NCBI RefSeq assembly: GCF_016827675.1
Contig: NZ_JAERJA010000001.1
Location: forward strand, 62,001 to 126,000
Length of the DNA stretch: 64,000 bases
Origin: Nocardioides limicola
GTDB taxonomy: Bacteria > Actinomycetota > Actinomycetes > Propionibacteriales > Nocardioidaceae
Direction: 5' to 3'
Under the pieces are notes generated by a model, which was not told where the DNA came from, made no database searches, and saw nothing but the letters and a program-made list of their open reading frames with translations. Each line of letters opens with the position of its first letter. Positions within the stretch are counted from its first letter, which is position 1. A program made the position numbers and the translations under genes. Of the stretch, positions 6,797-61,455 are shown piece after piece.

Positions 6797-9700
6797 TTGT
6801 ACCTCAAGACCCTGACGCTCAAGGGCTTCAAGTCCTTCGCCTCCGCCACCACGCTGCAGCTGGAGCCGGGCATCACCTGCATCGTCGGGCCCAACGGGTC
6901 CGGCAAGTCGAACGTCGTCGACGCGTTGGCCTGGGTGATGGGGGAGCAGGGCGCCAAGTCGCTGCGCGGCGGCAAGATGGAGGACGTCATCTTCGCCGGC
7001 ACCGCCGGCCGTCCGCCGCTGGGCCGGGCCGAGGTGTCGCTGACCATCGACAACTCCGACGGTGCGCTGCCGATCGAGTACGCCGAGGTGACGATCACCC
7101 GGACGATGTTCCGCAACGGCGGCTCCGAGTACGCCATCAACGGCAGCTCCTGCCGACTGCTCGACGTCCAGGAACTGCTCAGCGACTCCGGCATCGGCCG
7201 CGAGATGCACGTCATCGTCGGCCAGGGCCAACTCGACTCGATCCTGCACGCCACCCCCGAGGACCGGCGCGGGTTCATCGAGGAGGCCGCCGGCGTCCTC
7301 AAGCACCGCAAGCGCAAGGAGAAGGCGCTCCGCAAGCTCGATGCGACCGAGGGCAACCTGACCCGGCTGGCCGACCTGCTCACCGAGATCCGGCGACAGC
7401 TCAAGCCGTTGGGTCGGCAGGCGGAGGTGGCCCGCCGGGCCGCCATGGTGCAGGCCGACGTCCGGGACGCGCGAGCCCGGCTGCTCGCCGACGACATGGT
7501 CACCGCCACCACCGCCCTGGAGCAGGAGATGGCCGACGAGTCGGTGCTGCTGGAGCGCCGCGCCCAGGTCGAGGCCGAGCTCGCCGCCGCCCGGGAGCAG
7601 GAGGCGGCGCTGGAGGCCGGGCTCGCCGAGCGGCTGCCCGACCTGGCCCGCGCCCAGGAGACCTGGTTCGCCCTCTCCGGGCTGCGCGAACGGCTGCGCG
7701 GCACCCGGGCGCTGGCCGCCGAGCGGGTCCGCAACGCCGCCGACTCCGAGGCGTCCCCGGTCGACACCGGCGGCCGCGACCCCGACCAGCTCGAGGCGGA
7801 GGCCGAGCAGGCCGCCCAGGCCGAGGCCGCGATCACGGCCGAAGTGGGCACCCTCAAGGAGCGCCTCGACGAGGCGGTCGCGGCTCGGGTCGCCGCCGAG
7901 GAGGCCGCCGCGGCCGAGGACCGGCGGATCGCCGGCCTGCAACGAGCCGCCGCCGACCGGCGCGAAGGGCTGGCCCGGCTGCACGGCCAGGTCAACGCCG
8001 GCAGATCCCGGGTGGCCGCAGCCGACGACGAGATCGGCCGACTGACCAGCGCCCGCGAGGAGGCACTCGCCCGCGCCGACCGTGCCCAGCACGACTTCAC
8101 CGCCCTGGAGACCCAGGTCGCCGGGCTGGACGCAGGCGAGGAGGGCCTCGACGCCGAACACGAAGCAGCGTCAGCGGCCCTGGACGAGATCGAGGAACGA
8201 CTCAGCAAACTCCGCGAGGAGGCCCAGCAGGCCGAACGTAGCCGGTCCGCGTCGGCTGCCCGCAAGGAGGGTCTGGAGGTCGGCCTGGACCGCAAGGACG
8301 GCGCCGGCGCCCTGCTGGCCGCCTCGGAGCCGATCTCCGGGCTGCTCGGCTCGGTCGCCGCACTGCTGTCGGTGCGCCCCGGCCACGAGGCCGCGATCGC
8401 CGCGGCGCTGGGCCAGGCCGCGGACGCGGTCGCGGTCACCGACCCGGACGCGGCACTGGCCGCGTTGGCGCTGCTCAAGACCGAGGACCTCGGCAGGGCC
8501 GGCCTGGTGCTCTCCCGGGGGATCGCCGAGACCACCGACGACGCCGCCTGGCCCGGTCTGCCCAGCCATGCGTCGTACGCGGTGGATCTGGTGGAGGCAC
8601 CCGAGGAGGTCCGGCCCGCGCTGACCCGGCTGCTCTTCAAGACTGCCGTGGTCGGCGATGTGACCCAGGCACGCGAGTTGGTGGCTGCCCTCCCCGACGT
8701 CACCGCGGTCACCGCCGACGGGGACGTGCTCGGGGCTCACTTCGCCATCGGCGGCTCCAGCAGCCGGCCGAGCCTGATCGAGGTGCAGGCCGCCGTCGAC
8801 GAGGCCGCCGCTCAGCTCGCCGCCGCGATCGCGGACACCGAGCGGCTCGGCTTCGAGATCGCCGGACTCGACAACGAACGCACCGCCGCCAAGCAGCGGG
8901 TGGATGTGGCCCTGGCCCGGCTGCACGAGTCCGACGCGACCCTGGCCGCGGTGGCCGAGGAGTTGGGCCAGTACGGCGCGACCGCGCGCTCGGCCCGGGC
9001 CGAGGCCGAGCGGCTCGGCGCCTCGATCGCCTCCGCCCAGCAGGCACGGGAGCAGGCGCAGGTGGCCCTTCAGGAGCTCACCGCCCGGCTGGACGCCGCC
9101 GAGGAGGCCCCGGACGAGGAACCGGACACCGCCGGTCGCGAAGAACTCATCGAAGCCTCCCGGTCCGCGCGCCAGAGCGAGATGGAGGCCCGGCTGGGGC
9201 TGCGCACGGCCGAGGAGCGGGCCCGTGCCCTGCACGGCCGCGCCGACTCGCTCCGCCGCGCTGCCCGCTCCGAACGTGAGGCCCGGGCCAAGGCCGCCGA
9301 ACGACGGGAACGGCTGATCCGTGAAGGTCAGGCCGCACGCGCCGTCGGGGTGGCCGTGGAGCACGTGTTGAACCGACTCGAGAGGTCGATCGACCTGGCC
9401 GCGGTGGCCCGCGGCGAGGTGGAGGAGTCCCGGCGGGCCAGCGAGCAGGAGTTGCTCGCGGTGCGCGGGCGGCTGCGGGACCTGACCGCGGAGCACGACT
9501 CCCTGGTGGCGTCGGTGCATCGCGACGAGATGGCTCGCACCCAGCAGCGGATGCGGATCGAGCAGCTCACCGAACGGGCCATGGACGAGCTCGGCCTCGA
9601 TGCCGAGGCCCTGGTCCGCGACTACGGGCCCGACGTACCGGTGCCGGTGGCCCGCGCGGACGATGAGACGGACGGCGAGACGGGCGGCGCCGACGACACC

Positions 9701-10399
9701 GGAAGCGACGAGCAGCAACCCCAGACGATCCCGTACGTCCGCGAAGAACAGGTCAAGCGCCTGCGCGCCGCCGAGCGTGGCCTGGCGATGCTCGGCCGGG
9801 TCAACCCGTTGGCGCTGGAGGAGTTCTCCGCAATGGAGGAGCGGCACAAGTTCCTCACCGAGCAGTTGGAGGACCTCAAGCGCACCCGCAAGGACCTGAT
9901 GGAGATCGTCCACGAGGTCGACCAGCGGGTGGAACAGGTCTTCACCGAGGCCTACCGGGACGTGGAGAAGGCGTTCGAGGAGACCTTCTCCCGGCTCTTC
10001 CCCGGCGGCGAGGGGCGGTTGGTGCTCACTGACCCGGGCAACATGTTGGCCACCGGTGTGGAGGTGGAGGCGAGACCGCCGGGCAAGAAGGTCAAGCGGC
10101 TGTCGCTGCTGTCAGGTGGTGAGCGCTCGCTGGTGGCGGTGGCGTTCCTGGTCGCGCTCTTCAAGGCCCGGCCGAGCCCGTTCTACATCCTCGACGAGGT
10201 CGAGGCGGCGCTGGACGACACGAACCTGGGCCGGCTGCTGCAGATCTACGAAGAGCTGCGGACCCACTCCCAACTGCTGGTGATCACTCACCAGAAGCGC
10301 ACCATGGAGGTCGGGGACGCGCTGTACGGCGTGACGATGCGCGGCGACGGGGTGTCCGCGGTGATCAGCCAGCGGCTCCGCGAGGCCGAGTCGGCCTGA
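6797..10399 (+). CDS. smc: Chromosome segregation protein SMC
   Basis: SMC is the ATPase of the condensin complex that compacts and segregates the chromosome with ScpA and ScpB. At 1200 residues it is full length: Walker A GPNGSGKS at residues 31-38, a long first coiled coil, a hinge at roughly 500-650, a second coiled coil, the LSGGE signature and Walker B FYILDEVEAALDD near the C terminus. TTG 6797 was chosen because it gives MYLKTLTLKGFKSF, the canonical start, and GGGAG at 6786-6790 precedes it by 6 bases; an in-frame ATG at 6728 is too early. The insert about residues 950-975 is very acidic. The gene end is duplicated (see 10386). Confidence 0.97.
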   Translation: MYLKTLTLKGFKSFASATTLQLEPGITCIVGPNGSGKSNVVDALAWVMGEQGAKSLRGGKMEDVIFAGTAGRPPLGRAEVSLTIDNSDGALPIEYAEVTITRTMFRNGGSEYAINGSSCRLLDVQELLSDSGIGREMHVIVGQGQLDSILHATPEDRRGFIEEAAGVLKHRKRKEKALRKLDATEGNLTRLADLLTEIRRQLKPLGRQAEVARRAAMVQADVRDARARLLADDMVTATTALEQEMADESVLLERRAQVEAELAAAREQEAALEAGLAERLPDLARAQETWFALSGLRERLRGTRALAAERVRNAADSEASPVDTGGRDPDQLEAEAEQAAQAEAAITAEVGTLKERLDEAVAARVAAEEAAAAEDRRIAGLQRAAADRREGLARLHGQVNAGRSRVAAADDEIGRLTSAREEALARADRAQHDFTALETQVAGLDAGEEGLDAEHEAASAALDEIEERLSKLREEAQQAERSRSASAARKEGLEVGLDRKDGAGALLAASEPISGLLGSVAALLSVRPGHEAAIAAALGQAADAVAVTDPDAALAALALLKTEDLGRAGLVLSRGIAETTDDAAWPGLPSHASYAVDLVEAPEEVRPALTRLLFKTAVVGDVTQARELVAALPDVTAVTADGDVLGAHFAIGGSSSRPSLIEVQAAVDEAAAQLAAAIADTERLGFEIAGLDNERTAAKQRVDVALARLHESDATLAAVAEELGQYGATARSARAEAERLGASIASAQQAREQAQVALQELTARLDAAEEAPDEEPDTAGREELIEASRSARQSEMEARLGLRTAEERARALHGRADSLRRAARSEREARAKAAERRERLIREGQAARAVGVAVEHVLNRLERSIDLAAVARGEVEESRRASEQELLAVRGRLRDLTAEHDSLVASVHRDEMARTQQRMRIEQLTERAMDELGLDAEALVRDYGPDVPVPVARADDETDGETGGADDTGSDEQQPQTIPYVREEQVKRLRAAERGLAMLGRVNPLALEEFSAMEERHKFLTEQLEDLKRTRKDLMEIVHEVDQRVEQVFTEAYRDVEKAFEETFSRLFPGGEGRLVLTDPGNMLATGVEVEARPPGKKVKRLSLLSGGERSLVAVAFLVALFKARPSPFYILDEVEAALDDTNLGRLLQIYEELRTHSQLLVITHQKRTMEVGDALYGVTMRGDGVSAVISQRLREAESA

Positions 10400-10423
10400 G
10401 GGAGCCGAGTCCGCCTGAGGGAT
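10386..10423 (+). repeat. Two-copy 19-bp tandem repeat at the smc stop
   Basis: Copy 1 (10386-10404) contains the last smc codons and TGA; copy 2 (10405-10423) repeats it with 2 changes, including a second TGA. The shared part reads CCGAGTCSGCCTGAGGGA. It is one of six gene ends in the window with a stop-anchored tandem repeat. Confidence 0.8.
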
Positions 10424-10910: not shown

Positions 10911-12032
10911 ATGGCTCTTGAGTGGATTCTGCTGATCGTCGGCATCGCCGTCGTCGGCCTGCTGGTCCTGGTCGGACTGCTCCGCAGTGGGCGGGGCGAC
11001 AAGGTCGACACTCCGACCGTTCAGCCGACCCAGGCACCTGGCACCGACCTGCTGGAACCACCCGAGTCGGTCACCGAGCCGGAGCCCAGCGCGCCCACGT
11101 TGGAGCGACCCGAGGGCCGCGAGTCCCGGCTGGTCCGGCTGCGGCAGCGGTTGTCCGGTTCCCAAGGCGCCTTGGGCCGTGGGCTGCTGGCGCTGCTGAG
11201 CCGAGACCGGTTGGACTCCGACACCTGGGAGGACATCGAAGACACCCTGCTCACCGCCGACATCGGCGTCGCCCCCACCCAGGAACTGGTGGACCGACTG
11301 CGCTCCCGGCTGCGCGTCGAAGGCGGCGAAGCCCCCGACCCGCGCACCGTGCTGCGCGAAGAGCTGCTCACCCTGCTCAACCCCGAGGCCGACCGTCGCC
11401 TCGCTGTCTCCGGTGCGGACGGCCAGCCGGGCATCGTGCTGGTGGTCGGGGTGAACGGTGCCGGCAAGACCACCACCGTGGGCAAGATCGCCCGGATCCT
11501 GGTGGCCGAGGATCGCACTGTCCTGTTGGGGGCCGCCGACACGTTCCGAGCCGCCGCGGTCGAGCAGTTGGCCACCTGGGGTGATCGCGTCGGTGTCGAG
11601 GTGGTGCGCGGTCCCGAGGGCACCGACCCGGCAAGCGTCGCCTTCGACGCGGTCAAGCAGGGCATCGACGCCGGAGTGGACACGGTGCTGGTGGACACCG
11701 CCGGCCGGCTGCAGAACAAGGCCGGCCTGATGGACGAGCTCGGCAAGGTCAAGCGGGTCATCGAGAAGCAGGCGCCGGTCACCGAGGTGCTGCTGGTCCT
11801 GGACGCCACCACGGGCCAGAACGGCATGGTCCAGGCCCGCGTGTTCAGCGAGGTCGTGGACGTCACCGGGATCGTGTTGACCAAGCTGGACGGCTCGGCC
11901 AAGGGCGGCATCGTGGTCGCCGTACAGCGCCAACTCGGCGTACCCGTGAAGCTGGTCGGCGTCGGGGAGGGGCCCGACGACCTCGCCCCCTTCGACCCGG
12001 AAGCCTTCGTCGACGCCCTGCTCGGCGGATAA
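10911..12032 (+). CDS. ftsY: Signal recognition particle receptor FtsY
   Basis: FtsY is the membrane-bound SRP receptor GTPase that docks ribosome-SRP complexes to SecYEG. At 373 residues it begins with a membrane anchor (about residues 3-24, LEWILLIVGIAVVGLLVLVG), unlike the peripheral E. coli form, then a short acidic linker. The NG domain starts around residue 80 and has G1 GVNGAGKTTT (about residue 181), DTFRAAAVEQL, G3 DTAGRLQNK and G4 TKLDGSAKGG. The stop TAA lies inside the first copy of a 21-bp repeat. Ffh, its partner, is 4 kb downstream. Confidence 0.97.
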   Translation: MALEWILLIVGIAVVGLLVLVGLLRSGRGDKVDTPTVQPTQAPGTDLLEPPESVTEPEPSAPTLERPEGRESRLVRLRQRLSGSQGALGRGLLALLSRDRLDSDTWEDIEDTLLTADIGVAPTQELVDRLRSRLRVEGGEAPDPRTVLREELLTLLNPEADRRLAVSGADGQPGIVLVVGVNGAGKTTTVGKIARILVAEDRTVLLGAADTFRAAAVEQLATWGDRVGVEVVRGPEGTDPASVAFDAVKQGIDAGVDTVLVDTAGRLQNKAGLMDELGKVKRVIEKQAPVTEVLLVLDATTGQNGMVQARVFSEVVDVTGIVLTKLDGSAKGGIVVAVQRQLGVPVKLVGVGEGPDDLAPFDPEAFVDALLGG

Positions 12033-12098
12033 GGCCCAACTCGGCGCGGATAAGGCCCAAGTCGGCGCGGATGGGGCCCAAGTCGGCGTGATGGGGGT
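12022..12098 (+). repeat. 21-bp tandem repeat overlapping the ftsY stop
   Basis: Copies: 12022-12040 (19 bases, includes the ftsY stop), 12041-12061, 12062-12082 and a partial copy from 12083. The core is GCGGATAAGGCCCAAGTCGG. Copy 12062-12082 is identical over 21 bases to copy 52806-52826 behind the GT4 gene 40 kb away. GGGCCC in successive copies could pair. Confidence 0.9.
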
Positions 12099-12259: not shown

Positions 12260-13938
<1,679 letters not shown>

Positions 13939-16318: not shown

Positions 16319-17884
16319 TTGTTCGCCACCCTGTCCGACCGTCTGGCCGACACCTTCAAGAACCTCCGCGGCAAGGGTCGCCTCTCCGAGGCCGACATCG
16401 ACGCAACCGCGCGCGAGATCCGGATCGCGCTGCTGGAGGCCGACGTCGCGCTGCCGGTGGTCAAGCAGTTCGTGGGCGCGGTCAAGGAGCGGGCCCGTGG
16501 CGAGGAGGTCAGCGGCGCGCTGAACCCCGCCCAGCAGGTCATCAAGATCGTCAACGAGGAACTGGTGGCGATCCTCGGCGGCGAGACCCGGCGACTCCGC
16601 TACGCCAAGTCCGGCCCGACGGTGATCATGCTGGCCGGCCTGCAGGGTGCAGGCAAGACGACCCTGGCCGCCAAACTGGCCCTCTGGCTCAAGGAGCAGG
16701 ACAAGCAGCCGCTGCTGGTGGCCGCGGACCTGCAGCGCCCGAACGCGGTCAACCAGCTCCAGGTCAACGGTGAGCGGGTCGGCGTCAAGGTGTTCGCCCC
16801 CGAACCCGGCAACGGCGTCGGCGACCCGGTGAAGGTGGCCCGGGACGCGATCGAGGAGGCCAAGCGCACCCTGCACGACGTGGTCATCGTCGACACCGCC
16901 GGCCGGCTCGGCGTGGACGCGGAGATGATGCAGCAGGCCGCGGACATCCGGGACGCGGTCAACCCCGACGAGGTGCTCTTCGTCGTGGACGCGATGATCG
17001 GTCAGGACGCGGTCACCACCGCCCAGGCCTTCCTCGACGGTGTCGGGTACGACGGCGTCGTCCTCACCAAGCTCGACGGCGACGCCCGCGGTGGTGCCGC
17101 GCTGTCGATCGCCTCGATCACCGGCCGACCGGTGATGTTCGCCTCGGCGGGCGAGAAGATGACCGACTTCGATCTCTTCCACCCCGACCGGATGGCGTCC
17201 CGGATCCTCGACATGGGCGACATGCTCACCCTGATCGAGCAGGCCGAGAAGACCTTCGATGCCGAGCAGGCGATGAAGGCGGCCGACAAGCTGGCCGGCA
17301 GGGGAGGGGAGTTCACCCTCACCGACTTCCTCGAGCAGATGCAGCAGGTCCGCAAGCTCGGCTCGCTCTCCAAGATCATGGGGATGCTGCCCGGGATGGC
17401 GCAGTTCCGCGACCAGTTGGAGAACTTCGACGAGCGCGAGATCGACCGGATCGAGGCGATCATCTGCTCGATGACCCCGGCCGAGCGGGCCAACCCCAAG
17501 CTGATCGACGGCTCCCGCCGGGCCCGGATCGCCAAGGGCTCGGGACGCCAGGTCTCCGACGTGAACACGCTGGTGGACCGGTTCTTCGAAGCCCGCAAGA
17601 TGATGGAGCAGATGGCCCGTGGCGGCGGGATGCCCGGCATGCCGGGGATGCCGGGGATGCCCGGGCAGGGCAAGCGGGCCAAGGCCAAGCAGGCGCCGAA
17701 GAAGGGCAAGAGCAAGCGCGTCTCCGGCAACCCCGCCAAGGCGGCCGCCCAGAAGCGGTCCCAGGAACAGCAGGAGTCGCAGCGGCCGGCGAACCCGTTC
17801 GGCGCGCCGATGGACCCGGCCGACCTCGAGAAGGCCGCCAAGGAGTTCCAGCTCCCCGAGGACTTCTCCAAGTTCCTGAAGTGA
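16319..17884 (+). CDS. ffh: Signal recognition particle protein Ffh
   Basis: Ffh (SRP54) binds signal sequences and 4.5S RNA and delivers ribosomes to FtsY. At 521 residues it has the N domain, G domain motifs GLQGAGKTTLAAK (about residues 107-119), DTAGRLGVD and TKLDGDARGG, and a methionine-rich M domain containing MPGMPGMPGMPG repeats and basic KRAKAKQAPKKGKSKR. TTG 16319 gives the canonical MFATLSDRLADTFKNLRGKG; GAGGAAG precedes it. TAGGCT at about 16271-16276 is a likely -10. The stop codon lies in the first unit of a 16-bp tandem repeat. Confidence 0.97.
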   Translation: MFATLSDRLADTFKNLRGKGRLSEADIDATAREIRIALLEADVALPVVKQFVGAVKERARGEEVSGALNPAQQVIKIVNEELVAILGGETRRLRYAKSGPTVIMLAGLQGAGKTTLAAKLALWLKEQDKQPLLVAADLQRPNAVNQLQVNGERVGVKVFAPEPGNGVGDPVKVARDAIEEAKRTLHDVVIVDTAGRLGVDAEMMQQAADIRDAVNPDEVLFVVDAMIGQDAVTTAQAFLDGVGYDGVVLTKLDGDARGGAALSIASITGRPVMFASAGEKMTDFDLFHPDRMASRILDMGDMLTLIEQAEKTFDAEQAMKAADKLAGRGGEFTLTDFLEQMQQVRKLGSLSKIMGMLPGMAQFRDQLENFDEREIDRIEAIICSMTPAERANPKLIDGSRRARIAKGSGRQVSDVNTLVDRFFEARKMMEQMARGGGMPGMPGMPGMPGQGKRAKAKQAPKKGKSKRVSGNPAKAAAQKRSQEQQESQRPANPFGAPMDPADLEKAAKEFQLPEDFSKFLK

Positions 17885-17952
17885 TCTAGTCCTGAAGTGA
17901 TCGAGTCCTGAAGTGATCGAGTCCTGAAGTGAGCAAGTTCCTCAAGTGAGCA
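17876..17952 (+). repeat. 16-bp tandem repeat over the ffh stop and next start
   Basis: Units CTGAAGTGATCGAGTC: 17876-17891 (one change, includes the ffh TGA), 17892-17907, 17908-17923 (identical), 17924-17940 (17 bases, diverged) and a partial fifth unit from 17941 that contributes the GTG start and AGTGAGC of the next gene. The array is the whole intergenic region. Confidence 0.9.
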
Positions 17953-23136: not shown

Positions 23137-24177
23137 ATGACCTTCGATACCCCCCGTCCCGGACACGAGGACGTCGCCGAGAACGCCATCGAACTCAAGG
23201 ACGTCCAGGGGCTCTCCCAGGGCCAGATCGTCTGGCGCCGGTTCCGCCGACACCGCGGCGCGATCGGTGGCCTGCTGGCGCTGCTCGCGGTGGTGGGCCT
23301 GGCGTTCACCTCGATCGGTTTCGGCCCGATCCCGGGCTGGTGGCAGCACACCCCGAGCTCCCGGCTCGACCTGATCAACCCGATGGGCCGGCCGACCATG
23401 GCGTTGCCGACCTGGCTCGGTGGCTCCGGGTTCGCGATCGGCGACGCGCCGTTCGGCCAGGACGAGATCGGCCGGGACATCTTCGCCCGCACCATGCGTG
23501 GGGTGCAGACGTCGGTGCAGGTGATGGTGATCATCGGACTGGTCTCCGCCGTGCTCGGCGTGCTGATCGGTGCCTGCGCCGGCTTCTACCGGGGCTGGAT
23601 CGACCAGGGTCTGATGCGGCTGACCGACCTGATCATCACCTTCCCACTGGTGGTCGTCGGCGCGGTGCTGGGCAAGATCGCCGGTGGCGGCAACGTGGCG
23701 CTGCTGGCACTCTTCCTCGGGCTGCTGATCTGGCCGGGCATGGCCCGACTCGTCCGAGGCGACTTCCTCAGCCTGCGCGAGCGCGAGTTCGTGGACGCCG
23801 CCCGGGTGGCCGGGGCCAGCGACTGGCGGATCATCCGCAAGCACATGATCCCCAACGCGATGGGCGTCATCATCGTCAACCTGACCCTGGTGATGTCGGC
23901 CGCCATCCTGCTCGAGGCGGCGCTGAGCTACCTCGGCTTCGGAGTGCAGACCCCGAACGTCTCACTGGGCCTGATGATCTCCCAGTACCAGTCGGCATTC
24001 AGCACCCGACCGTGGCTCTTCTGGTGGCCCGGCTTCTTCATCATCGTGTTGGTGCTCAGCATCAACTTCATCGGTGACGGGCTGCGCGATGCCTTCGACC
24101 CACGTCAGAAGAAGGTGCCCACCGCCCGCCAGATGGCCCGCGCCGCCCGCAAGATCGAAAAGGGAGCCCCCCAGTGA
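23137..24177 (+). CDS. Peptide ABC transporter permease (OppC/DppC type)
   Basis: A 346-residue permease with a hydrophilic N terminus, a first helix around residues 45-65, and the EAA-loop motif EFVDAARVAGASDWRIIRKH. PFGQDEIGRDIFARTMRG is the conserved DppC periplasmic block. ATG 23137 has GAGGGG 7-12 bases upstream. A ring of three 22-bp repeats starts directly after the stop. Together with the preceding permease it forms the transmembrane channel. Confidence 0.94.
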   Translation: MTFDTPRPGHEDVAENAIELKDVQGLSQGQIVWRRFRRHRGAIGGLLALLAVVGLAFTSIGFGPIPGWWQHTPSSRLDLINPMGRPTMALPTWLGGSGFAIGDAPFGQDEIGRDIFARTMRGVQTSVQVMVIIGLVSAVLGVLIGACAGFYRGWIDQGLMRLTDLIITFPLVVVGAVLGKIAGGGNVALLALFLGLLIWPGMARLVRGDFLSLREREFVDAARVAGASDWRIIRKHMIPNAMGVIIVNLTLVMSAAILLEAALSYLGFGVQTPNVSLGLMISQYQSAFSTRPWLFWWPGFFIIVLVLSINFIGDGLRDAFDPRQKKVPTARQMARAARKIEKGAPQ

Positions 24178-24243
24178 CCGCCGAAGTGGGGTTTGTGGCC
24201 CGCCGAGGTGGGGTTTGTGGCCCGCCGAGGTGGGGTTTGTGGC
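24178..24243 (+). repeat. Three 22-bp tandem repeats filling a convergent gap
   Basis: Copies 24178-24199, 24200-24221 and 24222-24243; the core is CCGAGGTGGGGTTTGTGGCC, with GAAGTG in the first copy. The array begins at the base after the oppC stop and ends 2 bases before the stop of the convergent PH-like gene, so it is the entire intergenic region. Confidence 0.92.
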
Positions 24244-24245
24244 CG

Positions 24246-24779
24246 TCAGCCGAGCGCCAGCAGGCCCAGCATCGCGACCACGACCACACCAGCGGTCACC
24301 ACAGCCAGCTGATCCCACTGCACGACCGGACGGTCGGCGTCGTTGGACTCCGTGCGCGTGAGATCGGTATGCGCCCGGACCCGCTCCAGTCGCTGCCGCA
24401 CCATCACGGCCGCCTCGGTCTCCTCGGCGGCGGCCCGGGCCCGACCCATCGGCGCGGGGACCGCCCACGCGTTGAAGTCGCCGTACCTGGTCTCCACCCG
24501 CAGCCCGTAGCGACTGTGCGCCTCCAGCACGCACGACCAGGGCAGGTGCACGCTGCGGAAGACGTTGCGCAGCAGTACGCCGCGCTCGTCCAGCACCAGG
24601 TGCGGGCGCCAGAAGGCCAGCCAGGCCGTCGCGGCGACCGCCAGCAGGCCGGCCGACAGCCTCGGCTGACCGTCGTAGGCCATCGCCACCGCACCGCCGG
24701 CGCCGAGAACCGTCACCGCGGCGCCCACCACCCGGGCGAAGCTCGACCGATACACCTGTGTCCACTGGCTCTCACCCAT
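24246..24779 (-). CDS. PH-domain-like (bPH6/DUF-type) membrane protein
   Basis: A 177-residue protein on the opposite strand inside the ABC cluster. It starts MGESQWTQVYRSSFARVVGA, has two N-terminal membrane segments (about 15-52), a soluble middle with LVLDERGVLLRNVFRSVHLPWSCV and YGDFNAWAVP, and a C-terminal membrane helix. This layout matches the bacterial PH_6 family of small actinobacterial membrane proteins, function unknown. ATG 24779 was taken over the upstream in-frame start at 24830 because the latter would reach towards the divergent ATPase promoter. It interrupts the transporter operon. Confidence 0.75.
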   Translation of the reverse strand: MGESQWTQVYRSSFARVVGAAVTVLGAGGAVAMAYDGQPRLSAGLLAVAATAWLAFWRPHLVLDERGVLLRNVFRSVHLPWSCVLEAHSRYGLRVETRYGDFNAWAVPAPMGRARAAAEETEAAVMVRQRLERVRAHTDLTRTESNDADRPVVQWDQLAVVTAGVVVVAMLGLLALG

Positions 24780-26739: not shown

Positions 26740-27267
26740 GTGGCCGTCAAGATCCGCTTGAAGCGCCTGGGCAAGATCCGGGTCCCGCAGTACCGCATCG
26801 TCGTCGTCGACTCGCGCAAGAAGCGCGACGGTCGAGTGATCGAGGAGATCGGCAAGTACCACCCCAAGGAGGACCCGTCGTACATCGACGTCGTCTCCGA
26901 CCGGGCGCAGTACTGGCTGGGCGTCGGCGCGCAGCCGACCGAGGCCGTCGAGGTCCTCCTGAAGATCACCGGCGACTGGCAGAAGTTCAAGGGCGAGCCT
27001 GGTGCCGAGGGCACGCTGAGGGTCGCCGAGCCGAAGCAGGACAAGTTGGCCCGCTTCAACGAGGCACTCAAGGACGCGCAGAGCGCGCCCAAGGAGGCCA
27101 TCGCGCCGAAGGCCGCTGAGAAGGCTGAGCCGAAGGCTGACAAGGCCGAGGAGAAGGCTGAGCCCAAGGCTGAGGAGAAGGCCGAGGAGAAGCCCGCCGC
27201 CGAGGCAGCGTCCGAGGAGCCCACCGAGGCCAAGGGCGACGAGGCCGAGACCCCGGCCGAGGCCTGA
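26740..27267 (+). CDS. rpsP: 30S ribosomal protein S16 with long acidic/Lys-Ala tail
   Basis: S16 assembles early into the 30S subunit. The conserved core is the first about 88 residues ([20 protein letters not shown], with HPKEDPSYI). The remaining about 87 residues are low-complexity, rich in Ala, Glu, Lys and Pro (repeats of AEKAEPKA type). Such extensions are usual in Actinobacteria. GTG 26740 is preceded by GAGGAG. First gene of rpsP-khpA-rimM-trmD. Confidence 0.96.
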
Positions 27268-45698: not shown

Positions 45699-46673
45699 AT
45701 GGCCGTCGTGACCATGCGCCAGCTCCTCGAGAGCGGCGTCCACTTCGGGCACCAGACCCGGCGCTGGAACCCGAAGATGAAGCGCTTCATCATGACCGAG
45801 CGCAACGGCATCTACATCATCGACCTTCAGCAGTCGCTGGCCCACATCGACCGCAGCTACGCGTTCATCAAGGAGACCGTCTCCAAGGGCGGCACCCTGA
45901 TGTTCGTGGGCACCAAGAAGCAGGCCCAGGGCGCGATCGCCGAGCAGGCGACCCGCGTCGGGATGCCGTACGTGAACCAGCGTTGGCTGGGCGGCATGCT
46001 CACCAACTTCCAGACCGTGCTCCAGCGGATCAACCGCCTCAAGGAGCTCGACGAGATCGACTTCGACGACGTCGCCGGCTCCGGTCGCACGAAGAAGGAA
46101 CTCCTGCAGATGAAGCGGGAGCGGGACAAGCTCGACAAGACCCTGGGCGGCATCCGCGAGATGACCCGCACCCCGTCTGCTGTCTGGATCGTGGACACGA
46201 ACAAGGAGCACCTTGCGGTCGAGGAGGCCCGCAAGCTGCGGATCCCGATCATCGCGATCCTGGACTCCAACTGCGACCCGGACCTGGTCGACTTCCCGAT
46301 CCCCGGCAACGATGACGCGATCCGCGCCGTCGGCCTGCTGACCCGCGTGGTGGCCGACGCCGTCGCCGACGGCCTGATCTCGCGCTCCGGCGCCAAGACC
46401 GAGGACACCGCTGCTGAGCCGCTGGCCGAGTGGGAGCGCGAGCTGCTCGGCGCCGACGAGGCGAACGCGCCGGCCGAGGAGACGAAGGCCGCCGAGGCCC
46501 CCGTGGCCGAGGAAGCCGCCGAGGCCCCCGTGGCCGAGGAGGCTCCCGCCGAAGCTCCCGCTGCTGAGGCTCCCGCCGCCGACGCTCCGGCCGCCGACGC
46601 TGCCGCCGAGGAGGCCCCTCAGGCTGCTGACGAGGCCACCGAGGCGCCCGTCGAGGCCCCGGCCGAGTCCTGA
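45699..46673 (+). CDS. rpsB: 30S ribosomal protein S2 with low-complexity tail
   Basis: S2 binds late to the 30S subunit. The core is residues 1-245, with [32 protein letters not shown] and [12 protein letters not shown]. The last about 75 residues are Ala, Glu and Pro rich (repeats of EAPVAEEA type), a common actinobacterial extension. ATG 45699 gives the canonical start. A strong hairpin separates it from tsf. Confidence 0.96.
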
Positions 46674-51513: not shown

Positions 51514-52755
51514 ATGCTCGAATCTCACTCGGCAGGGGTCGGAGCCGGTCGACCCCCCAGGTCGCTGTCCAGGCGGGCATCCCGCAAGGTCGTCCGGCTG
51601 CCGCGCCCGGCGCAGCCCGCGAAACTTCGGGTGCTGGTGGTCGCGGAGTCCTTCTTGCCACAGGTCAACGGGGTCACCAACTCGGTCCGGCGGGTGCTGG
51701 ACCACCTGGCGTCCCACGGTCACGTCGCGCACCTGGTCGCGCCGACCGGCCCGGAGGAGTACGCCGGCTTCGCGGTCACCAAGGTCCGTGGGGCCAGCCT
51801 GCCGTTCTACGCGGACTTCCGGATCGGCCTGGAGACCCGGCGACGGCTCCGCGCGCTGATGCTTGAGTTCCAGCCCGATGTGGTCCACCTCGCCTCACCG
51901 GCGACGCTGGGCTACCAGGCAGCCAGAGCCGCCCGCGAACTCGACATCCCCACGGTCGCGATCTATCAGACCGATCTGGTCGGATTCGCGGACGGCTACC
52001 GGATCCCTGGCGGAGCAGCAGCGATGTCCCGCCTCACCCGGCGCATCCACTGCCAGGTGGATCGCACCCTGGCCCCGTCCACGGCGAGTCTGCGGCAGCT
52101 CGAGGCACTCGACGTGCCAGGGCTGGCCAAGTGGCCCAGGGGAGTGGACCTGACCCAGTTCGATCCCTCGCACCGCTGTGCGGCGTTGCGCCGGGAGTTG
52201 GCGCCGCACGGCCAGAAGCTGGTCGGGTACGTCGGCCGGTTGGCCCCCGAGAAGGAACTGGAGCTGCTGGTGCACGCGGCCCGGATCCCCGGTGTCAAGG
52301 TGGTGGTGGTCGGGGGTGGCCCCGAGGAGGCTCGGCTGCGCCGGCTGCTGCCGGAGGCAGCGTTCCTGGGCGTGTTGCATGGCGCCGATCTGGGCCGTGC
52401 CTATGCGTCCCTCGACGTGTTCGTGCACACCGGTCGACACGAGACCTACTGCCAGGCGGCCCAAGAGGCACTCGCCTCCGGGGTGCCGGTGGTGGCTCCT
52501 CGGGCGGGCGGTCCGATCGACGTGGTCGACGATCAGGTGACCGGGTTCCTGTACGCCCCCGGGGAGGGGGCGGAGATGGCCGCGCTCGTGAAGAGTCTGG
52601 TCCGCAACCCGACGCTCAGGCAGCGGATGGGCCACGATGCCCGTCGCCGAGTCGAAGGCAGGTCCTGGGAGGCGGTCATCGACCTGCTGCTCGAGCACTA
52701 CCGCGACGCGCTGGCTCATCGTCGTACGTCGTCAGGCGGTCGCAGCGTCGCCTAG
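51514..52755 (+). CDS. Glycosyltransferase family 4, MgtA/PimB-like
   Basis: A 413-residue GT-B glycosyltransferase. The acceptor side has VVAESFLPQVNGVTNSVRRV and PDVVHLASPATLGYQA; the donor side has VGYVGRLAPEKELELLVHA and the EX7E motif in HETYCQAAQEALASG. This matches actinobacterial alpha-mannosyltransferases of the MgtA/PimB group, which build mannosylated glycolipids. ATG 51514 is set by GGAAGG. It is a single gene; the 202 bases upstream hold the inverted repeat and nothing else clear. The stop lies at the start of a 21-bp repeat array. Confidence 0.86.
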   Translation: MLESHSAGVGAGRPPRSLSRRASRKVVRLPRPAQPAKLRVLVVAESFLPQVNGVTNSVRRVLDHLASHGHVAHLVAPTGPEEYAGFAVTKVRGASLPFYADFRIGLETRRRLRALMLEFQPDVVHLASPATLGYQAARAARELDIPTVAIYQTDLVGFADGYRIPGGAAAMSRLTRRIHCQVDRTLAPSTASLRQLEALDVPGLAKWPRGVDLTQFDPSHRCAALRRELAPHGQKLVGYVGRLAPEKELELLVHAARIPGVKVVVVGGGPEEARLRRLLPEAAFLGVLHGADLGRAYASLDVFVHTGRHETYCQAAQEALASGVPVVAPRAGGPIDVVDDQVTGFLYAPGEGAEMAALVKSLVRNPTLRQRMGHDARRRVEGRSWEAVIDLLLEHYRDALAHRRTSSGGRSVA

Positions 52756-52833
52756 TGCCCAGGTCGATGCGTGTAAGGCCCAAGTCGATGCGGATAGGGC
52801 CCAAGTCGGCGCGGATGGGGCCCAAGTCGATCA
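52748..52833 (+). repeat. 21-bp tandem repeat filling the GT4/LOG convergent gap
   Basis: Copies at 52764-52784, 52785-52805 and 52806-52826, with partial copies before (including the GT4 stop) and after (including the LOG stop). The core is GCGGATAGGGCCCAAGTCG. Copy 52806-52826 is identical over 21 bases to copy 12062-12082 behind ftsY. Confidence 0.92.
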
Positions 52834-53910
52834 GGTGAGGAGGGCTGCAACCTCGTCGGTGGTGTCCACCAGGTGCACCCGGTCGGCCATGTGCCGCCCG
52901 GACGCCAACGCCTGCAGCAGCGGCCAGGCCGGCAGCGTCTCGGTCCAGTACTGGCGCCCGACCAGCACCATCGGCGAGGTCGCGGACTCGTCGGCGTAGT
53001 AGTTCTCGCAGGCATCGGTGAAGATCTCCTGCACGGTGCCTGCGGCGCCGGGGAGGAAGACGATCCCGGCATTGCAGATCTGCAGCAGCACCGCTTCGCG
53101 TTGGGGGTTGGCGAAGTACTTGGCGATCGAGGTGGCGAACGGGTTCGGCGGCTCGTGGCCGTAGTGCCAGGTCGGCACCCCCAGTGACTCCGCTCCGTCG
53201 GGGAACCGGTCACGCACACCGAACGCAGCGTCGGCCCAGGCACCGATCGACGGCGTGAACGACGGCACCGTGCCCAGCATCCGCACCGCCTCGCCGAGTT
53301 CGGCCGCGTCGCGGTCCCGCATCCAGGCGCCCAGGTTCGCCGCCTCCATGGCCCCGGGACCGCCGCCGGTGGCGACGGTGTGCGCGCCGGCGAGGCGTTG
53401 GCCGAGCTCGGCCGCCTGGAGGTACGACGTACCTCCGCGCCGCAGGCTGTGACCACCCATCACCCCCACGAGGCTGCGTCCCACGACGTACTGCTCCACC
53501 GCATCGTCGATCGCGTGGTCGTGCAACGCCTGGGCGAGGGTGACGTCGAGGTTGCGCACCTGCTGTGACCAGGCGTAGGCGCACGCGTCCAGGCTGTCCT
53601 GGTAGTCGCCCGAGCCGAACAGTTCGGTCGGCGTGTACAGCGTCGTCCGGTAGGTGTCGATCGGCAGGCCGGGAAGCTCGGGGAAGACGATCGCGCCCCG
53701 CGCCCGCACCGAGACGGCGTCGGCCTCGGTCAGTCGACAGCCCAGGAAGAGGGCGCCGGCCACGTCCAGTGACCGCAGCGCGGTGCCGCGCTCGGTCAGG
53801 TCGACCCCCTGCAGGTGCCAGCCGCTCATCGACGTGGCTCCCAGCCGGAGTCTTCGGTCGAATTGTCCGATCGTCTCGACTTCGATGATCCTGCCGCGAA
53901 CGTGTCTCAC
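52831..53910 (-). CDS. LOG-family (TIGR00730-like) Rossmann nucleotide-binding protein
   Basis: A 359-residue protein with a Rossmann-like fold. The two LOG motifs are TGGGPGAMEAAN and, altered, LPGAAGTVQEIF (the usual PGGxGTxxE has Gly in the third position). It is longer than typical LOG proteins (about 190 residues), with about 130 extra N-terminal residues; such long actinobacterial forms are known to me only as uncharacterised proteins. GTG 53910 has a leaderless promoter. Family members hydrolyse cytokinin or nucleoside monophosphates; the altered motif makes activity uncertain. Confidence 0.82.
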   Translation of the reverse strand: MRHVRGRIIEVETIGQFDRRLRLGATSMSGWHLQGVDLTERGTALRSLDVAGALFLGCRLTEADAVSVRARGAIVFPELPGLPIDTYRTTLYTPTELFGSGDYQDSLDACAYAWSQQVRNLDVTLAQALHDHAIDDAVEQYVVGRSLVGVMGGHSLRRGGTSYLQAAELGQRLAGAHTVATGGGPGAMEAANLGAWMRDRDAAELGEAVRMLGTVPSFTPSIGAWADAAFGVRDRFPDGAESLGVPTWHYGHEPPNPFATSIAKYFANPQREAVLLQICNAGIVFLPGAAGTVQEIFTDACENYYADESATSPMVLVGRQYWTETLPAWPLLQALASGRHMADRVHLVDTTDEVAALLT

Positions 53911-55421: not shown

Positions 55422-56945
55422 TCACTGGGCAGGCCGGACCGCCACCTTGGTCCACTCGTCAGTGGCCCGTGCGTGGCTGGTCCGGACGACCCACACCCTC
55501 AGTCGGGCCGTCTCAGACCGCCGTACCCGGGGCATCTCCACGGGCACGGTGACCTCACGGCTGCCTGCCGGGATCACCACCCGCTGGGTCCAGGTCAGCC
55601 CGGAACGGCGAGCGGGCTGAAGCACCACCACGGCTCGGCGACCGCTGACCCGACCCAGTCGGACGGTCACCTCGCCGGTCCGGTCCCGGGACGGCTCCGA
55701 GGCCCGGGTGATCCCACCGATCAGGCGCACCCGGGGCGGGCGCATCGACTCCACGATCCTGCCCGGCACCTGCGCGGTCCCGATCACCAGGCCGCGCGCG
55801 GCGCTGAGTTCGACGGTGAGTCTGGTGTCGGCTCGATAGACGTCATCCGCGGTGGTCGGGATCCGCACCGTCGCCGTGGTCCGACCCGGCCGGAACCTCA
55901 CTCGGGTGGAGACGGGCTGGTAGTGGACGCCGGCCACCGCTGACCCATCCCGCGTCCGCACCCGCACGCTGGTCGGCTCGATCGTGGCTGCGTTCAGCCG
56001 AAGCCGGACCACCAGGTCCTCACCCTCGGTCCGGGGTGCGATCGACGCGGTCACCCGCGGGGTCGGCAGCACCGGCCGGCCGGCGTCGTCGAGGGTGCCG
56101 AAGCAGTAGCCCCGATTCCGGGCCTGTCGGACGATCCGCGGCACCGCCGCGATAGACGCCGGCGAGTTCCGGATCCCGTCGTGCTGGAGCACGATGTTGC
56201 GACCTCCGGGCTGCAGCCTGGCCAGCACCCGGTCCGCGATCTGCTGGGTCGTCCACCGCTCCCAGTCGCGCGGATCCACGTCCCACATCACCGGCACCAG
56301 GCCTGCACCGCGGATCACTCGCTCGACCCGCGCGTCCATGTCTCCGTACGGCGGTCGCATCAGCGGAGTGGGTCGCACCCCGGCGGCCCTGAGTTCGGTA
56401 TCGGTGCGTCGCAGGGTGCTCCGGATGGCGGCGTTGGTCTGCTTGGTCATCTGGTCGTGGGCGTAGGAGTGGTTGGCGATCCGGTGCCCGGCCCGATGCG
56501 CCGCGCGCGCCGTCCCGGGCGTCTGGGCCACTCGGCGGCCGACCATGAAGAAGACGGCCGGCACGTTGAGGTCGTCCAGCGTGCGCAGCAACCGCCGGGT
56601 CAGTTCGGCGTCCGGTCCGTCGTCGAACGTGAGCACCACCACGCCCGACGGGCAGGCACCCCGATCGGCCCGGGCGAGCCCGTCGTCGACCGGGGCGGAC
56701 ACCTGCGGGAACACCCACGGCCCCGATGCCTCGCCGGCAGGCTCATCGACGCCGGCTTCGTCGGCGGCGACCAGCAGGGGATCCTCAGCGGGGGGCGCAG
56801 CGGTGGGCAGATCGGTGCTGGCCAGCACCAGGGTGGTGCTCATCAGCAGGGCGAGCACGCCGACGGCGCCCCACCGTGTCGATGAGGCCCATCGTGTCGA
56901 CGAACCCCATCGTGTCGACGAACCCCACCGTGTCGACCAACCCAT
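55422..56945 (-). CDS. Exported polysaccharide deacetylase (NodB) with Calx-beta domain
   Basis: A 507-residue protein. After four Ser-Thr-Arg-Trp repeats (residues 4-26) and a signal or anchor helix (about 27-44) comes a NodB domain: TFDDGP at 106-111, NHSYAH, RPPYGDMD and VLQHDGI, the metal and catalytic set. From about residue 300 follows a Calx-beta domain (GSAVAGVHYQPVSTRVRF, then TVELSAARGLVIG) and a further beta-rich part. It probably removes N-acetyl groups from peptidoglycan or another glycan. ATG 56945 is the only start in frame but has no good ribosome binding site. Confidence 0.86.
   Translation of the reverse strand: MGWSTRWGSSTRWGSSTRWASSTRWGAVGVLALLMSTTLVLASTDLPTAAPPAEDPLLVAADEAGVDEPAGEASGPWVFPQVSAPVDDGLARADRGACPSGVVVLTFDDGPDAELTRRLLRTLDDLNVPAVFFMVGRRVAQTPGTARAAHRAGHRIANHSYAHDQMTKQTNAAIRSTLRRTDTELRAAGVRPTPLMRPPYGDMDARVERVIRGAGLVPVMWDVDPRDWERWTTQQIADRVLARLQPGGRNIVLQHDGIRNSPASIAAVPRIVRQARNRGYCFGTLDDAGRPVLPTPRVTASIAPRTEGEDLVVRLRLNAATIEPTSVRVRTRDGSAVAGVHYQPVSTRVRFRPGRTTATVRIPTTADDVYRADTRLTVELSAARGLVIGTAQVPGRIVESMRPPRVRLIGGITRASEPSRDRTGEVTVRLGRVSGRRAVVVLQPARRSGLTWTQRVVIPAGSREVTVPVEMPRVRRSETARLRVWVVRTSHARATDEWTKVAVRPAQ
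56876..56945 (-). repeat. In-frame 18-bp tandem repeat at the deacetylase N terminus
   Basis: Four copies on the plus strand: 56876-56893, 56894-56911, 56912-56929, 56930-56945 (last incomplete), core GTGTCGACGAACCCCATC. On the minus strand they encode repeated STRWGS-type hexapeptides that supply the positive charges before the signal helix. All four copies are in the same frame. Confidence 0.88.
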
Positions 56946-60207: not shown

Positions 60208-61359
60208 ATGACGTCTGTGAGCCTTGGCATGCCTGCGGCCCCGCCGCCGGTCCTCGCGCCGCGCCGGCCGACCCGCCAGATCCAGGTCGGCAAGGTCGGC
60301 GTCGGCAGCGACCACCCGATCTCGGTGCAGTCGATGACCACCACGCTGACCTCGGACGTCAACAGCACCCTGCAGCAGATCGCGGAACTCACCGCTGCCG
60401 GCTGTGACATCGTCCGGGTGGCCTGCCCGAGCCAGGACGACGCCGACGCGCTCGCCGAGATCGCCCAGCACTCGCAGATCCCGGTGATCGCGGACATCCA
60501 CTTCCAGCCCCGCTACGTCTTCGCGGCCATCGACGCCGGCTGTGCCGCGGTTCGGGTCAACCCCGGCAACATCAAGAAGTTCGACGACCAGATCAAGGAG
60601 ATCGCCCAGGCGGCCGCCGACCGGGGCACCTCGATCCGGATCGGCGTCAACGCCGGCAGCCTCGACAAGCGACTGATGGAGAAGTACGGCAAGGCCACCC
60701 CCGAGGCGCTGGTGGAGTCGGCGGTCTGGGAGGCGGGTCTCTTCGAGGAGCACGGCTTCCGCGACTTCAAGATCTCGGTCAAGCACAACGACCCGGTGGT
60801 GATGGTGCGCGCCTACGAGCTGCTGGCCGAGTCCGGCGACTGGCCGTTGCACCTGGGTGTCACCGAGGCGGGGCCCGCGTTCCAGGGCACCATCAAGTCC
60901 GCGACCGCGTTCGGGGCGCTGCTCAGCAAGGGCATCGGCGACACCATCCGGGTCTCCCTGTCCGCGCCGCCGGTCGAAGAGGTCAAGGTCGGCCTGCAGA
61001 TCCTGGAGTCGCTGAACCTGCGCCCCCGCCGGCTCGAGATCGTCTCCTGCCCCTCCTGCGGCCGCGCCCAGGTCGACGTCTACAAGTTGGCCGAGGAGGT
61101 CACCGCCGGCCTGGACGGCCTCGAGGTGCCGCTGCGGGTGGCGGTGATGGGGTGTGTGGTCAACGGCCCCGGGGAGGCCCGCGAGGCCGACCTCGGCGTC
61201 GCCTCGGGCAACGGCAAGGGGCAGATCTTCGTCAAGGGCGAGGTGATCAAGACCGTCCCCGAGTCGCAGATCGTGGAGACACTGATCGAGGAGGCGATGC
61301 GGATCGCCGAATCGATGGAGCCACAGGACGGCGCCGAACCCTCTGTCACCGTCTCCTGA
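60208..61359 (+). CDS. ispG: 4-hydroxy-3-methylbut-2-enyl-diphosphate synthase (flavodoxin)
   Basis: IspG makes HMBPP in the MEP pathway with an iron-sulfur cluster. At 383 residues it has the TIM-barrel part ([26 protein letters not shown]) and the cluster cysteines in SCPSCGR and [13 protein letters not shown]. It carries a leaderless promoter and ends in a 22-bp repeat array. The order dxr-rseP-ispG is standard in Actinobacteria. Confidence 0.96.
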
Positions 61360-61444
61360 CGAAGTGTCAAATCTCGCCCGACGAGGTGTCACATCTCGCC
61401 CGACGAGGTGTTAGATCTCGCGCGACGAGGTGTTAGATCTCGCG
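61357..61444 (+). repeat. Four 22-bp tandem repeats after the ispG stop
   Basis: Copies 61357-61378 (starts with the ispG TGA), 61379-61400, 61401-61422 and 61423-61444; the last two are identical. The core is GACGAGGTGTTAGATCTCGC; the first copy has GAAGTG where the later ones have GAGGTG. The SHOCT gene promoter follows after 11 bases. Confidence 0.93.
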
Positions 61445-61455
61445 CGTTGGCGCAC

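Follow-up and report, generated by a model that had tools for sequence, protein, structure and literature searches.

Tandem arrays at the ends of six genes

The window analysed here, a 64,000-nucleotide stretch of the 3.72-Mb genome of Nocardioides limicola, carries short tandem arrays at the 3′ ends of smc, ftsY, ffh, an oppC-like permease gene (23137-24177), a GT4 glycosyltransferase gene (51631-52755) and ispG. A sequence-only reading had named these six arrays, and all were recovered by TRF and confirmed in the letters. The gene names also hold, with SMC, FtsY, Ffh and IspG scoring above NCBIfam cut-offs and the oppC-like and GT4 genes matching related NCBIfam models below cut-off. Arrays with a period of 14-26 bp and a score of at least 69 number 8 in the window, whereas 60 dinucleotide shuffles yielded 0.03 on average and never more than 1. 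Those scoring at least 85 number 6, compared with none in the same shuffles. These counts do not coincide with the six gene-end arrays, since five of the six reach 85 and smc scores 69, the rest being an array at 56869-56943 and coding repeats. That array (18 bp × 4.2 copies, score 108) adjoins the start of a minus-strand gene and may be coding, as its period is divisible by three and a longer open reading frame (55422-56945) covers it. The statement that no array lies in the middle of a gene is correct only if in-frame coding repeats, such as those at 27109-27192 and 46451-46615, are set aside. No Rfam family matched the window at gathering score.

The arrays are of two sorts. Those of smc and ffh are local duplications, and the other four belong to dispersed families. 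The smc array (10385-10422, plus strand) consists of 2.0 copies of a 19-bp unit, with a TRF score of 69, and spans the smc stop codon, while the ffh array (17874-17949, plus strand; 16 bp × 4.7) starts within the final codons of ffh and includes its stop. In both, as the letters show, the repeat unit corresponds to the end of the gene itself, including the stop codon. At E ≤ 10 the ffh array matches nowhere else in the genome; assignment to a local, non-shared class is based on this genome-wide search for ffh and on the letters for smc.

The dispersed family F1 has a 22-bp unit, CGARGTG-N15, and its members in the window lie past oppC and ispG. TRF places the former at 24178-24244 (22 bp × 3.0) and the latter at 61358-61443 (22 bp × 3.9). 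As F1 arrays they comprise, respectively, three plus-strand units at 24182..24247 (genome C11:86182-86247), with the head, that is the CGA end, 4 nt past the oppC-like stop, and four plus-strand units at 61360..61447 (genome C11:123360-123447), with the head directly past the ispG stop (TGA). The oppC array lies between convergent genes, the minus-strand partner (24246-24779) being our own gene call without an NCBIfam match. Family F2 has a 21-bp unit, CGASTTGGGCC-N10, and is read on the minus strand at the ftsY and GT4 sites. The ftsY array (TRF 12025-12088/12096, 21 bp × 3.0-3.5) has three F2 units at 12023..12085 (genome C11:74023-74085), its tail at the ftsY stop and its head facing amt (12260-13603). 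The GT4 array (TRF 52753-52831, 21 bp × 3.8) likewise has three F2 units at 52767..52829 (genome C11:114767-114829), with the tail 11 nt from the GT4 stop and the head 1 nt past the stop of a minus-strand gene (52831-53829).

These assignments change several features of the initial description. Its view that units differ between loci fails for ftsY and GT4, which form a single family once read on the minus strand with the CGA end as head. The arrays were also said to start at or near the stop codons of the six genes; in the minus-strand reading, the GT4 array instead starts at the stop of the opposite gene, and the ftsY array meets the ftsY stop with its tail. Of the GAAGTG motif noted in the first copies of three arrays, the ispG and oppC instances are the F1 core, but in ffh it falls within the final codons and stop of the gene itself, which we regard as coincidence. 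A dispersed repeat family, one of the origins initially considered, is borne out for oppC, ispG, ftsY and GT4 but not for smc and ffh. In the N. limicola genome, the two-core F1 pattern CGARGTG-N15-CGARGTG gives 99 hits against 0 for a reversed control, the ispG unit 18 hits against 0, and the F2 pattern (≤3 mismatches) 143 hits against 19 for the reversed control.

Replication slippage, another of the origins considered, fits two of the six arrays, smc and ffh. In 1.2 Mb of the same genome, 32 local arrays are non-coding and 17 of them extend across a stop codon, compared with about 28% by our geometric estimate (p=0.002); two of the 32 (C15:278819 and C16:236852) resemble decayed F1. Within predicted genes, the period is divisible by three in 60 of 63 local arrays. 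Both the excess of stop-spanning arrays and the periods in genes are what would be expected from slippage plus selection on reading frame. Control stretches agree with this: in the Nocardioides genome G036, where F1 gives a single hit, four of the six non-coding arrays in 200 kb touch a stop codon or follow one by at most 8 nt; non-coding arrays made up 6 of 41 arrays in the G036 control stretch, 11 of 26 in G072, 6 of 36 in G055 and 6 of 56 in G071. The smc and ffh arrays are thus probably ordinary local duplications, tolerated across the stop codon.

A third repeat (F3), GGTCGAGTGCCG, has units of 21-24 bp and occurs near gene ends in the N. limicola genome at C11:1118-1213, C15:89421-89492, C15:323006-323110 and C11:195158-195284. 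We take it to resemble a repeat common in actinobacterial genomes. In G055 (3.0-3.2 Mb stretch), a 20-bp unit that includes TTCGTCGTCCAA forms arrays at 121123-121161 and 122230-122274, 20 and 36 nt past the end of a plus-strand gene, and these two arrays perhaps represent another gene-end family.

Position and orientation relative to genes

Within 1.2 Mb of the N. limicola genome there are 24 F1 and F2 arrays, of which 21 are non-coding and three fall in the interior of genes predicted by our own codon-usage finder, whose calls may be wrong. Of the three intragenic cases, one is an F1 pair that looks like a chance match, and the other two are F2 arrays that look genuine (C11:353565-353627 and C15:40364-40468). 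Both F2 arrays are located inside predicted minus-strand genes and are either gene-call errors or in-frame 21-bp insertions. In 17 of the 21 non-coding arrays, the head lies where a gene on the same strand ends, at distances from the stop of 0, 0, 0, 0, 1, 1, 1, 4, 4, 5, 7, 8, 8, 11, 20, 27 and 91 nt, 14 of them within 12 nt. For the 12 arrays with enough spacer, the position of the head departs from uniform with p=1e-9. None of the 21 arrays lies in a divergent spacer, although such spacers make up 25% of spacer length (p=0.002), whereas seven lie in convergent spacers, which make up 11.6% (p=0.007). Four of the 21 heads, including that of the ftsY array facing amt, point toward a gene start.

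The same preference is seen when other Nocardioides are included. The multi-genome distance count drops arrays less than 300 bp from a locus end, together with L122, L128, L133, L134, L152 and L173 (other genera or unclear metagenome-assembled genomes), L174, L175 and L184 (repeats of fetched stretches) and the remaining non-Nocardioides scan loci; L100-L119 and L121-L198 were selected for holding the F1 core. Among 124 array rows, 11 F1 and two F2 rows are inside genes, and some two-core hits in genes are chance matches because chaining permits one missing unit. A same-strand stop lies upstream of 86 of the 104 non-coding F1 arrays and of none of the other 18. Measured from the stop, the 86 heads lie between −16 and 17 nt in 74 cases, at 26-28 nt in three, at 63-91 nt in eight and at 131 nt in one, and none is found at 29-62 nt. 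By eye, several of the 18 arrays without an upstream stop face the start of an opposite-strand gene, in many cases forming the second member of a head-outward pair. Convergent genes in G055, G051 and others commonly have an array each. The proposed link with gene 3′ ends is supported by 17 of 21 heads in N. limicola and 74 of 86 across genomes, and the F1 and F2 arrays do not fall at random relative to stop codons, the outcome that would have spoken against it.

Anatomy of the F1 unit

Each F1 unit contains box A (CGARGTG), which the dialects have in common, and box B, a further conserved segment that changes from one dialect to another. Independently of any core search, box A is present in TRF period-22 arrays in 11 of 15 cases in N. 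limicola, 15 of 15 in G055, 15 of 16 in G051 and two of two in G033, one of the last being doubtful. Units of G055 scarcely vary at positions 1-7 and 15-20 (TTCTCC) but do so in between, and those of G051 (N. immobilis) scarcely vary at positions 1-9 and 14-17 (TTGG), the stretches from both genomes having been chosen because F1 is present. Units in N. limicola are more uniform, varying mainly at positions 20-22, so that box and linker are less distinct. Of 73 arrays, 48 have CGAAGTG as their first core and 61 have CGAGGTG as their last. Phased DNA bending was considered and is disfavoured (mean p of 0.35 for 98 F1 units, which are non-independent, and 0.74 for five F2 units), an 11-bp phasing of roll giving a weak signal in F1 and none in F2.

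Hairpins and RNA folding

In all eight cases where the head lies 63-91 nt past the stop, the segment from stop to head folds at −35.7 to −53.9 kcal/mol. In seven of these the stem is uninterrupted over 15-21 bp, and the head begins 9-26 nt beyond it; the eighth, from N. limicola, has an interrupted hairpin (−45.2 kcal/mol). Stems of at least 12 bp occur at 42 of 369 array-free gene ends in N. limicola and at six of 74 ends with a near array. The head therefore appears to follow the end of the transcript, as predicted from sequence, either after the stop codon or after a strong hairpin.

The arrays themselves fold unremarkably as sense RNA in 39 of 41 cases (z of −2.7 to 1.3), the exceptions being two N. 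daeguensis arrays (−7.4 and −3.7). These lie at L118:8450-8603 and 8650-8737 and consist of F1 units with strong RNA folding. A hairpin or transcript-stability role of the arrays, the latter among the options proposed initially, thus receives no support from folding, and an RNA hairpin or terminator role is further weakened by non-significant compensation tests.

Spread and turnover among genomes

Among 118 sampled Nocardioides genomes, F1 core pairs number 23-99 in 13, 10-13 in two and at most six in 103, with a reversed control giving at most three. The distribution is therefore patchy and two-peaked, and whatever function F1 may have is not essential to the genus, given the 103 genomes with at most six hits. 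Across a phylum-wide sample of 396 genomes, the three-core F1 pattern is found in one, that of N. limicola. In a scan of named genomes, the 80 loci among the matches listed comprise 39 from Nocardioides or Pimelobacter, one from a Propionibacteriales metagenome-assembled genome and 40 scattered widely. Two of the six opened loci outside Nocardioides and Pimelobacter start at most 9 nt past a called stop: in Brevibacterium antiquum (L128:2681-2746) and Streptomyces narbonensis (L173:6737-6846), CGAGGTG arrays of period 22 lie 9 and 1 nt, respectively, past the stop. Five viral contigs contain the three-core pattern, with CGARGTG arrays of period 22 at L328:7198-7270 and in L325 and L327. The ispG array, the one compared with plasmids, had no match there.

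Individual arrays turn over rapidly. At ispG, the one junction compared, none of 29 relatives has an array within 120 nt past the stop, so the absence from relatives that had been proposed as a refutation is found there. G000 and G033 (Nocardioides sp. Root190) have 106 reciprocal best hits, among which all six array-bearing G000 genes are array-less in G033 and the one array-bearing G033 gene is array-less in G000; four of the six G000 pairs are 51-67% identical and possibly not orthologues. Relatives share the habit of gene-end arrays and not the individual junctions. The region past ispG is closely alike in G014 and G034 (N. daeguensis), yet these genomes have 0 and 10 F1 hits, respectively.

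Candidate partner genes were also sought. Y1_Tnp, the RAYT domain, was found in none of the 118 Nocardioides at E ≤ 0.001 (the control was positive in five of 14 known genomes), which weakens mobility of the RAYT/REP type. RVT_1 was not found in the N. limicola genome and is present in 32 of the 118, including only three of the 13 F1-rich genomes, which weakens reverse transcription at transcript ends. DUF222/HNH is uninformative as a partner, since DUF222 is present in 117 of the 118 genomes.

Discussion

The pattern of the repeats suggests binding sites that mark gene boundaries. We propose, with a probability of about 0.45, that F1 and F2 are a BIME-like, gene-oriented family of putative protein-binding arrays at the ends of transcription units. 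Each array would be a row of sites for a predicted sequence-specific DNA-binding protein that acts at the level of DNA, and would mark or insulate the end of a transcription unit. Positive supercoils are described as gathering at gene 3′ ends, most of all where genes converge (PMC8360656), and BIME-2 elements as binding gyrase (PMC2817692). The arrays would most likely work by handling the positive supercoiling that collects at the unit end, as has been suggested for gyrase-binding BIMEs, or might seat a nucleoid protein, and new arrays may be seeded from old ones by recombination. Several observations argue against the protein-binding reading, namely that an upstream stop on the same strand is missing for 18 of the 104 F1 arrays outside genes, that four of 21 N. 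limicola heads face a gene start and two F2 arrays lie inside predicted genes, that box and linker are less distinct in N. limicola and F1 shows little phased roll and F2 none, and that 103 of 118 Nocardioides have at most six F1 hits while many F1 loci outside N. limicola were selected by their core.

A more far-reaching form of this proposal, which we advance tentatively and would not expect to hold in full, is that the arrays are a new class of boundary element. In this form they would be polar arrays of two-box putative sites spanning two helical turns, recognized by a dedicated putative protein whose specificity for box A is fixed while that for box B evolves fast. Located genome-wide at the ends of transcripts (past the stop, or past a terminator if present), they would insulate neighbouring and above all convergent genes, either topologically or by blocking polymerase in one direction.

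The main rival is that the arrays are selfish or mobile tandem repeats, copied by a putative recombination enzyme and tolerated only past the end of the transcript, with the boxes as recognition sites of the enzyme and the dialects reflecting its divergence. We consider this unlikely, albeit with an appreciable chance of being correct. Fast turnover (six of six and one of one array-bearing genes between G000 and G033, and the ispG array absent in 29 of 29 relatives), the patchy, two-peaked spread in the genus and the head-outward pairs are all consistent with such elements. However, Y1_Tnp was found in 0 of 118 genomes and RVT_1 not in N. limicola and in only three of the 13 F1-rich genomes, no cargo or target duplication was noticed in the course of an unsystematic inspection, and tolerance alone would not place heads a few nucleotides from the stop.

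The orientation with genes, the location at 3′ ends and the enrichment between convergent genes would also suit transcription terminators, in which the array would stop the polymerase through RNA hairpins or, with greater likelihood, through a bound protein acting as a one-way roadblock. At convergent ends, a 50-nt window folding at −28 kcal/mol or below is found in none of seven with arrays compared with 47 of 187 without, although the difference is non-significant (p=0.20) and has little power at n=7. Codirectional ends show no such deficit (two of nine with arrays compared with 40 of 226 without, p=0.66), sense folding is unremarkable in 39 of 41 arrays, and eight of 86 arrays follow a strong hairpin, which is about the share of long stems at array-free ends (42 of 369). 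We therefore judge a terminator role improbable.

Less probable again are neutral minisatellites, functionless products of slippage kept where frame is irrelevant. They account well for the local arrays, both in N. limicola (17 of 32 stop-spanning, 60 of 63 in genes with periods divisible by three) and near stops in F1-poor G036 (four of six non-coding arrays in 200 kb). For F1 and F2 they are already disfavoured, as the units are common to many loci and genomes, are oriented with genes and have constrained boxes. Signals for uptake or self-recognition, which like DNA uptake sequences would have dialects with a common core, resemble the arrays in this and in gene-end placement as described for Neisseriaceae (PMC3630211), but are very improbable here because the Neisseriaceae signals are described as numbering in the thousands and as commonly intragenic (PMC3630211), compared with 99 core pairs mostly outside genes.

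If the proposed binding of a protein at transcription-unit ends is correct, the arrays offer a sequence handle on how neighbouring transcription units are kept separate and on torsion between convergent genes. Since the sampled Nocardioides have either many or almost no F1 arrays, the question can be addressed by comparing natural strains.

Comparison with known systems

Repeats gathered at the 3′ ends of bacterial genes are already known as a kind, in the form of uptake sequences or of the REP/BIME palindromes. In the open-access literature searched, in part among top-ranked matches only, no description was recognized of direct arrays that are oriented with genes and have two boxes and dialects. 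Mycobacterial interspersed repetitive units are tandem repeats of actinobacteria that abut stop and start codons, and are set apart by longer units and a location within operons.

Tandem direct repeats that evolve rapidly are also described in prokaryotes for Borgs, but these are extrachromosomal elements of archaea (PMC9879509). The ribosome termination structure resembles the arrays in lying directly past the stop codon, but is described as an RNA structure (PMC7518266), whereas F1 and F2 arrays show no systematic folding. Nor do the arrays, those of N. daeguensis excepted, form the stable hairpin of an intrinsic terminator. The DNA uptake sequences of Neisseriaceae, as described, share with F1 a constant core within variable dialects and an association with gene ends (PMC3630211), box A being constant and box B variable in F1 loci that were mostly found by their core. 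They differ as single 10-12-mers with thousands of copies that are also intragenic (PMC3630211), compared with 99 two-core hits in 22-bp arrays in the N. limicola genome, a count that covers core pairs and not single cores.

The closest parallel is with REP/BIME elements. REPs are described as GTAG- or CGTC-tagged palindromes tied to RAYT transposases (PMC2817692), whereas F1 and F2 units are direct, asymmetric and oriented with genes, with unremarkable folding in 39 of 41 arrays, unlike a palindromic stem-loop, and with Y1_Tnp found in none of the 118 Nocardioides. Nevertheless, REPs are also described as dispersed, intergenic and located downstream of coding regions, mostly between unidirectional or convergent genes, where they sometimes supply the stop codon (PMC3733652), and BIME-2 elements as tandem arrays that bind gyrase (PMC2817692). 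The F1 and F2 arrays share this placement, lying downstream of genes by 17 of 21 heads and avoiding divergent spacers (0 of 21).
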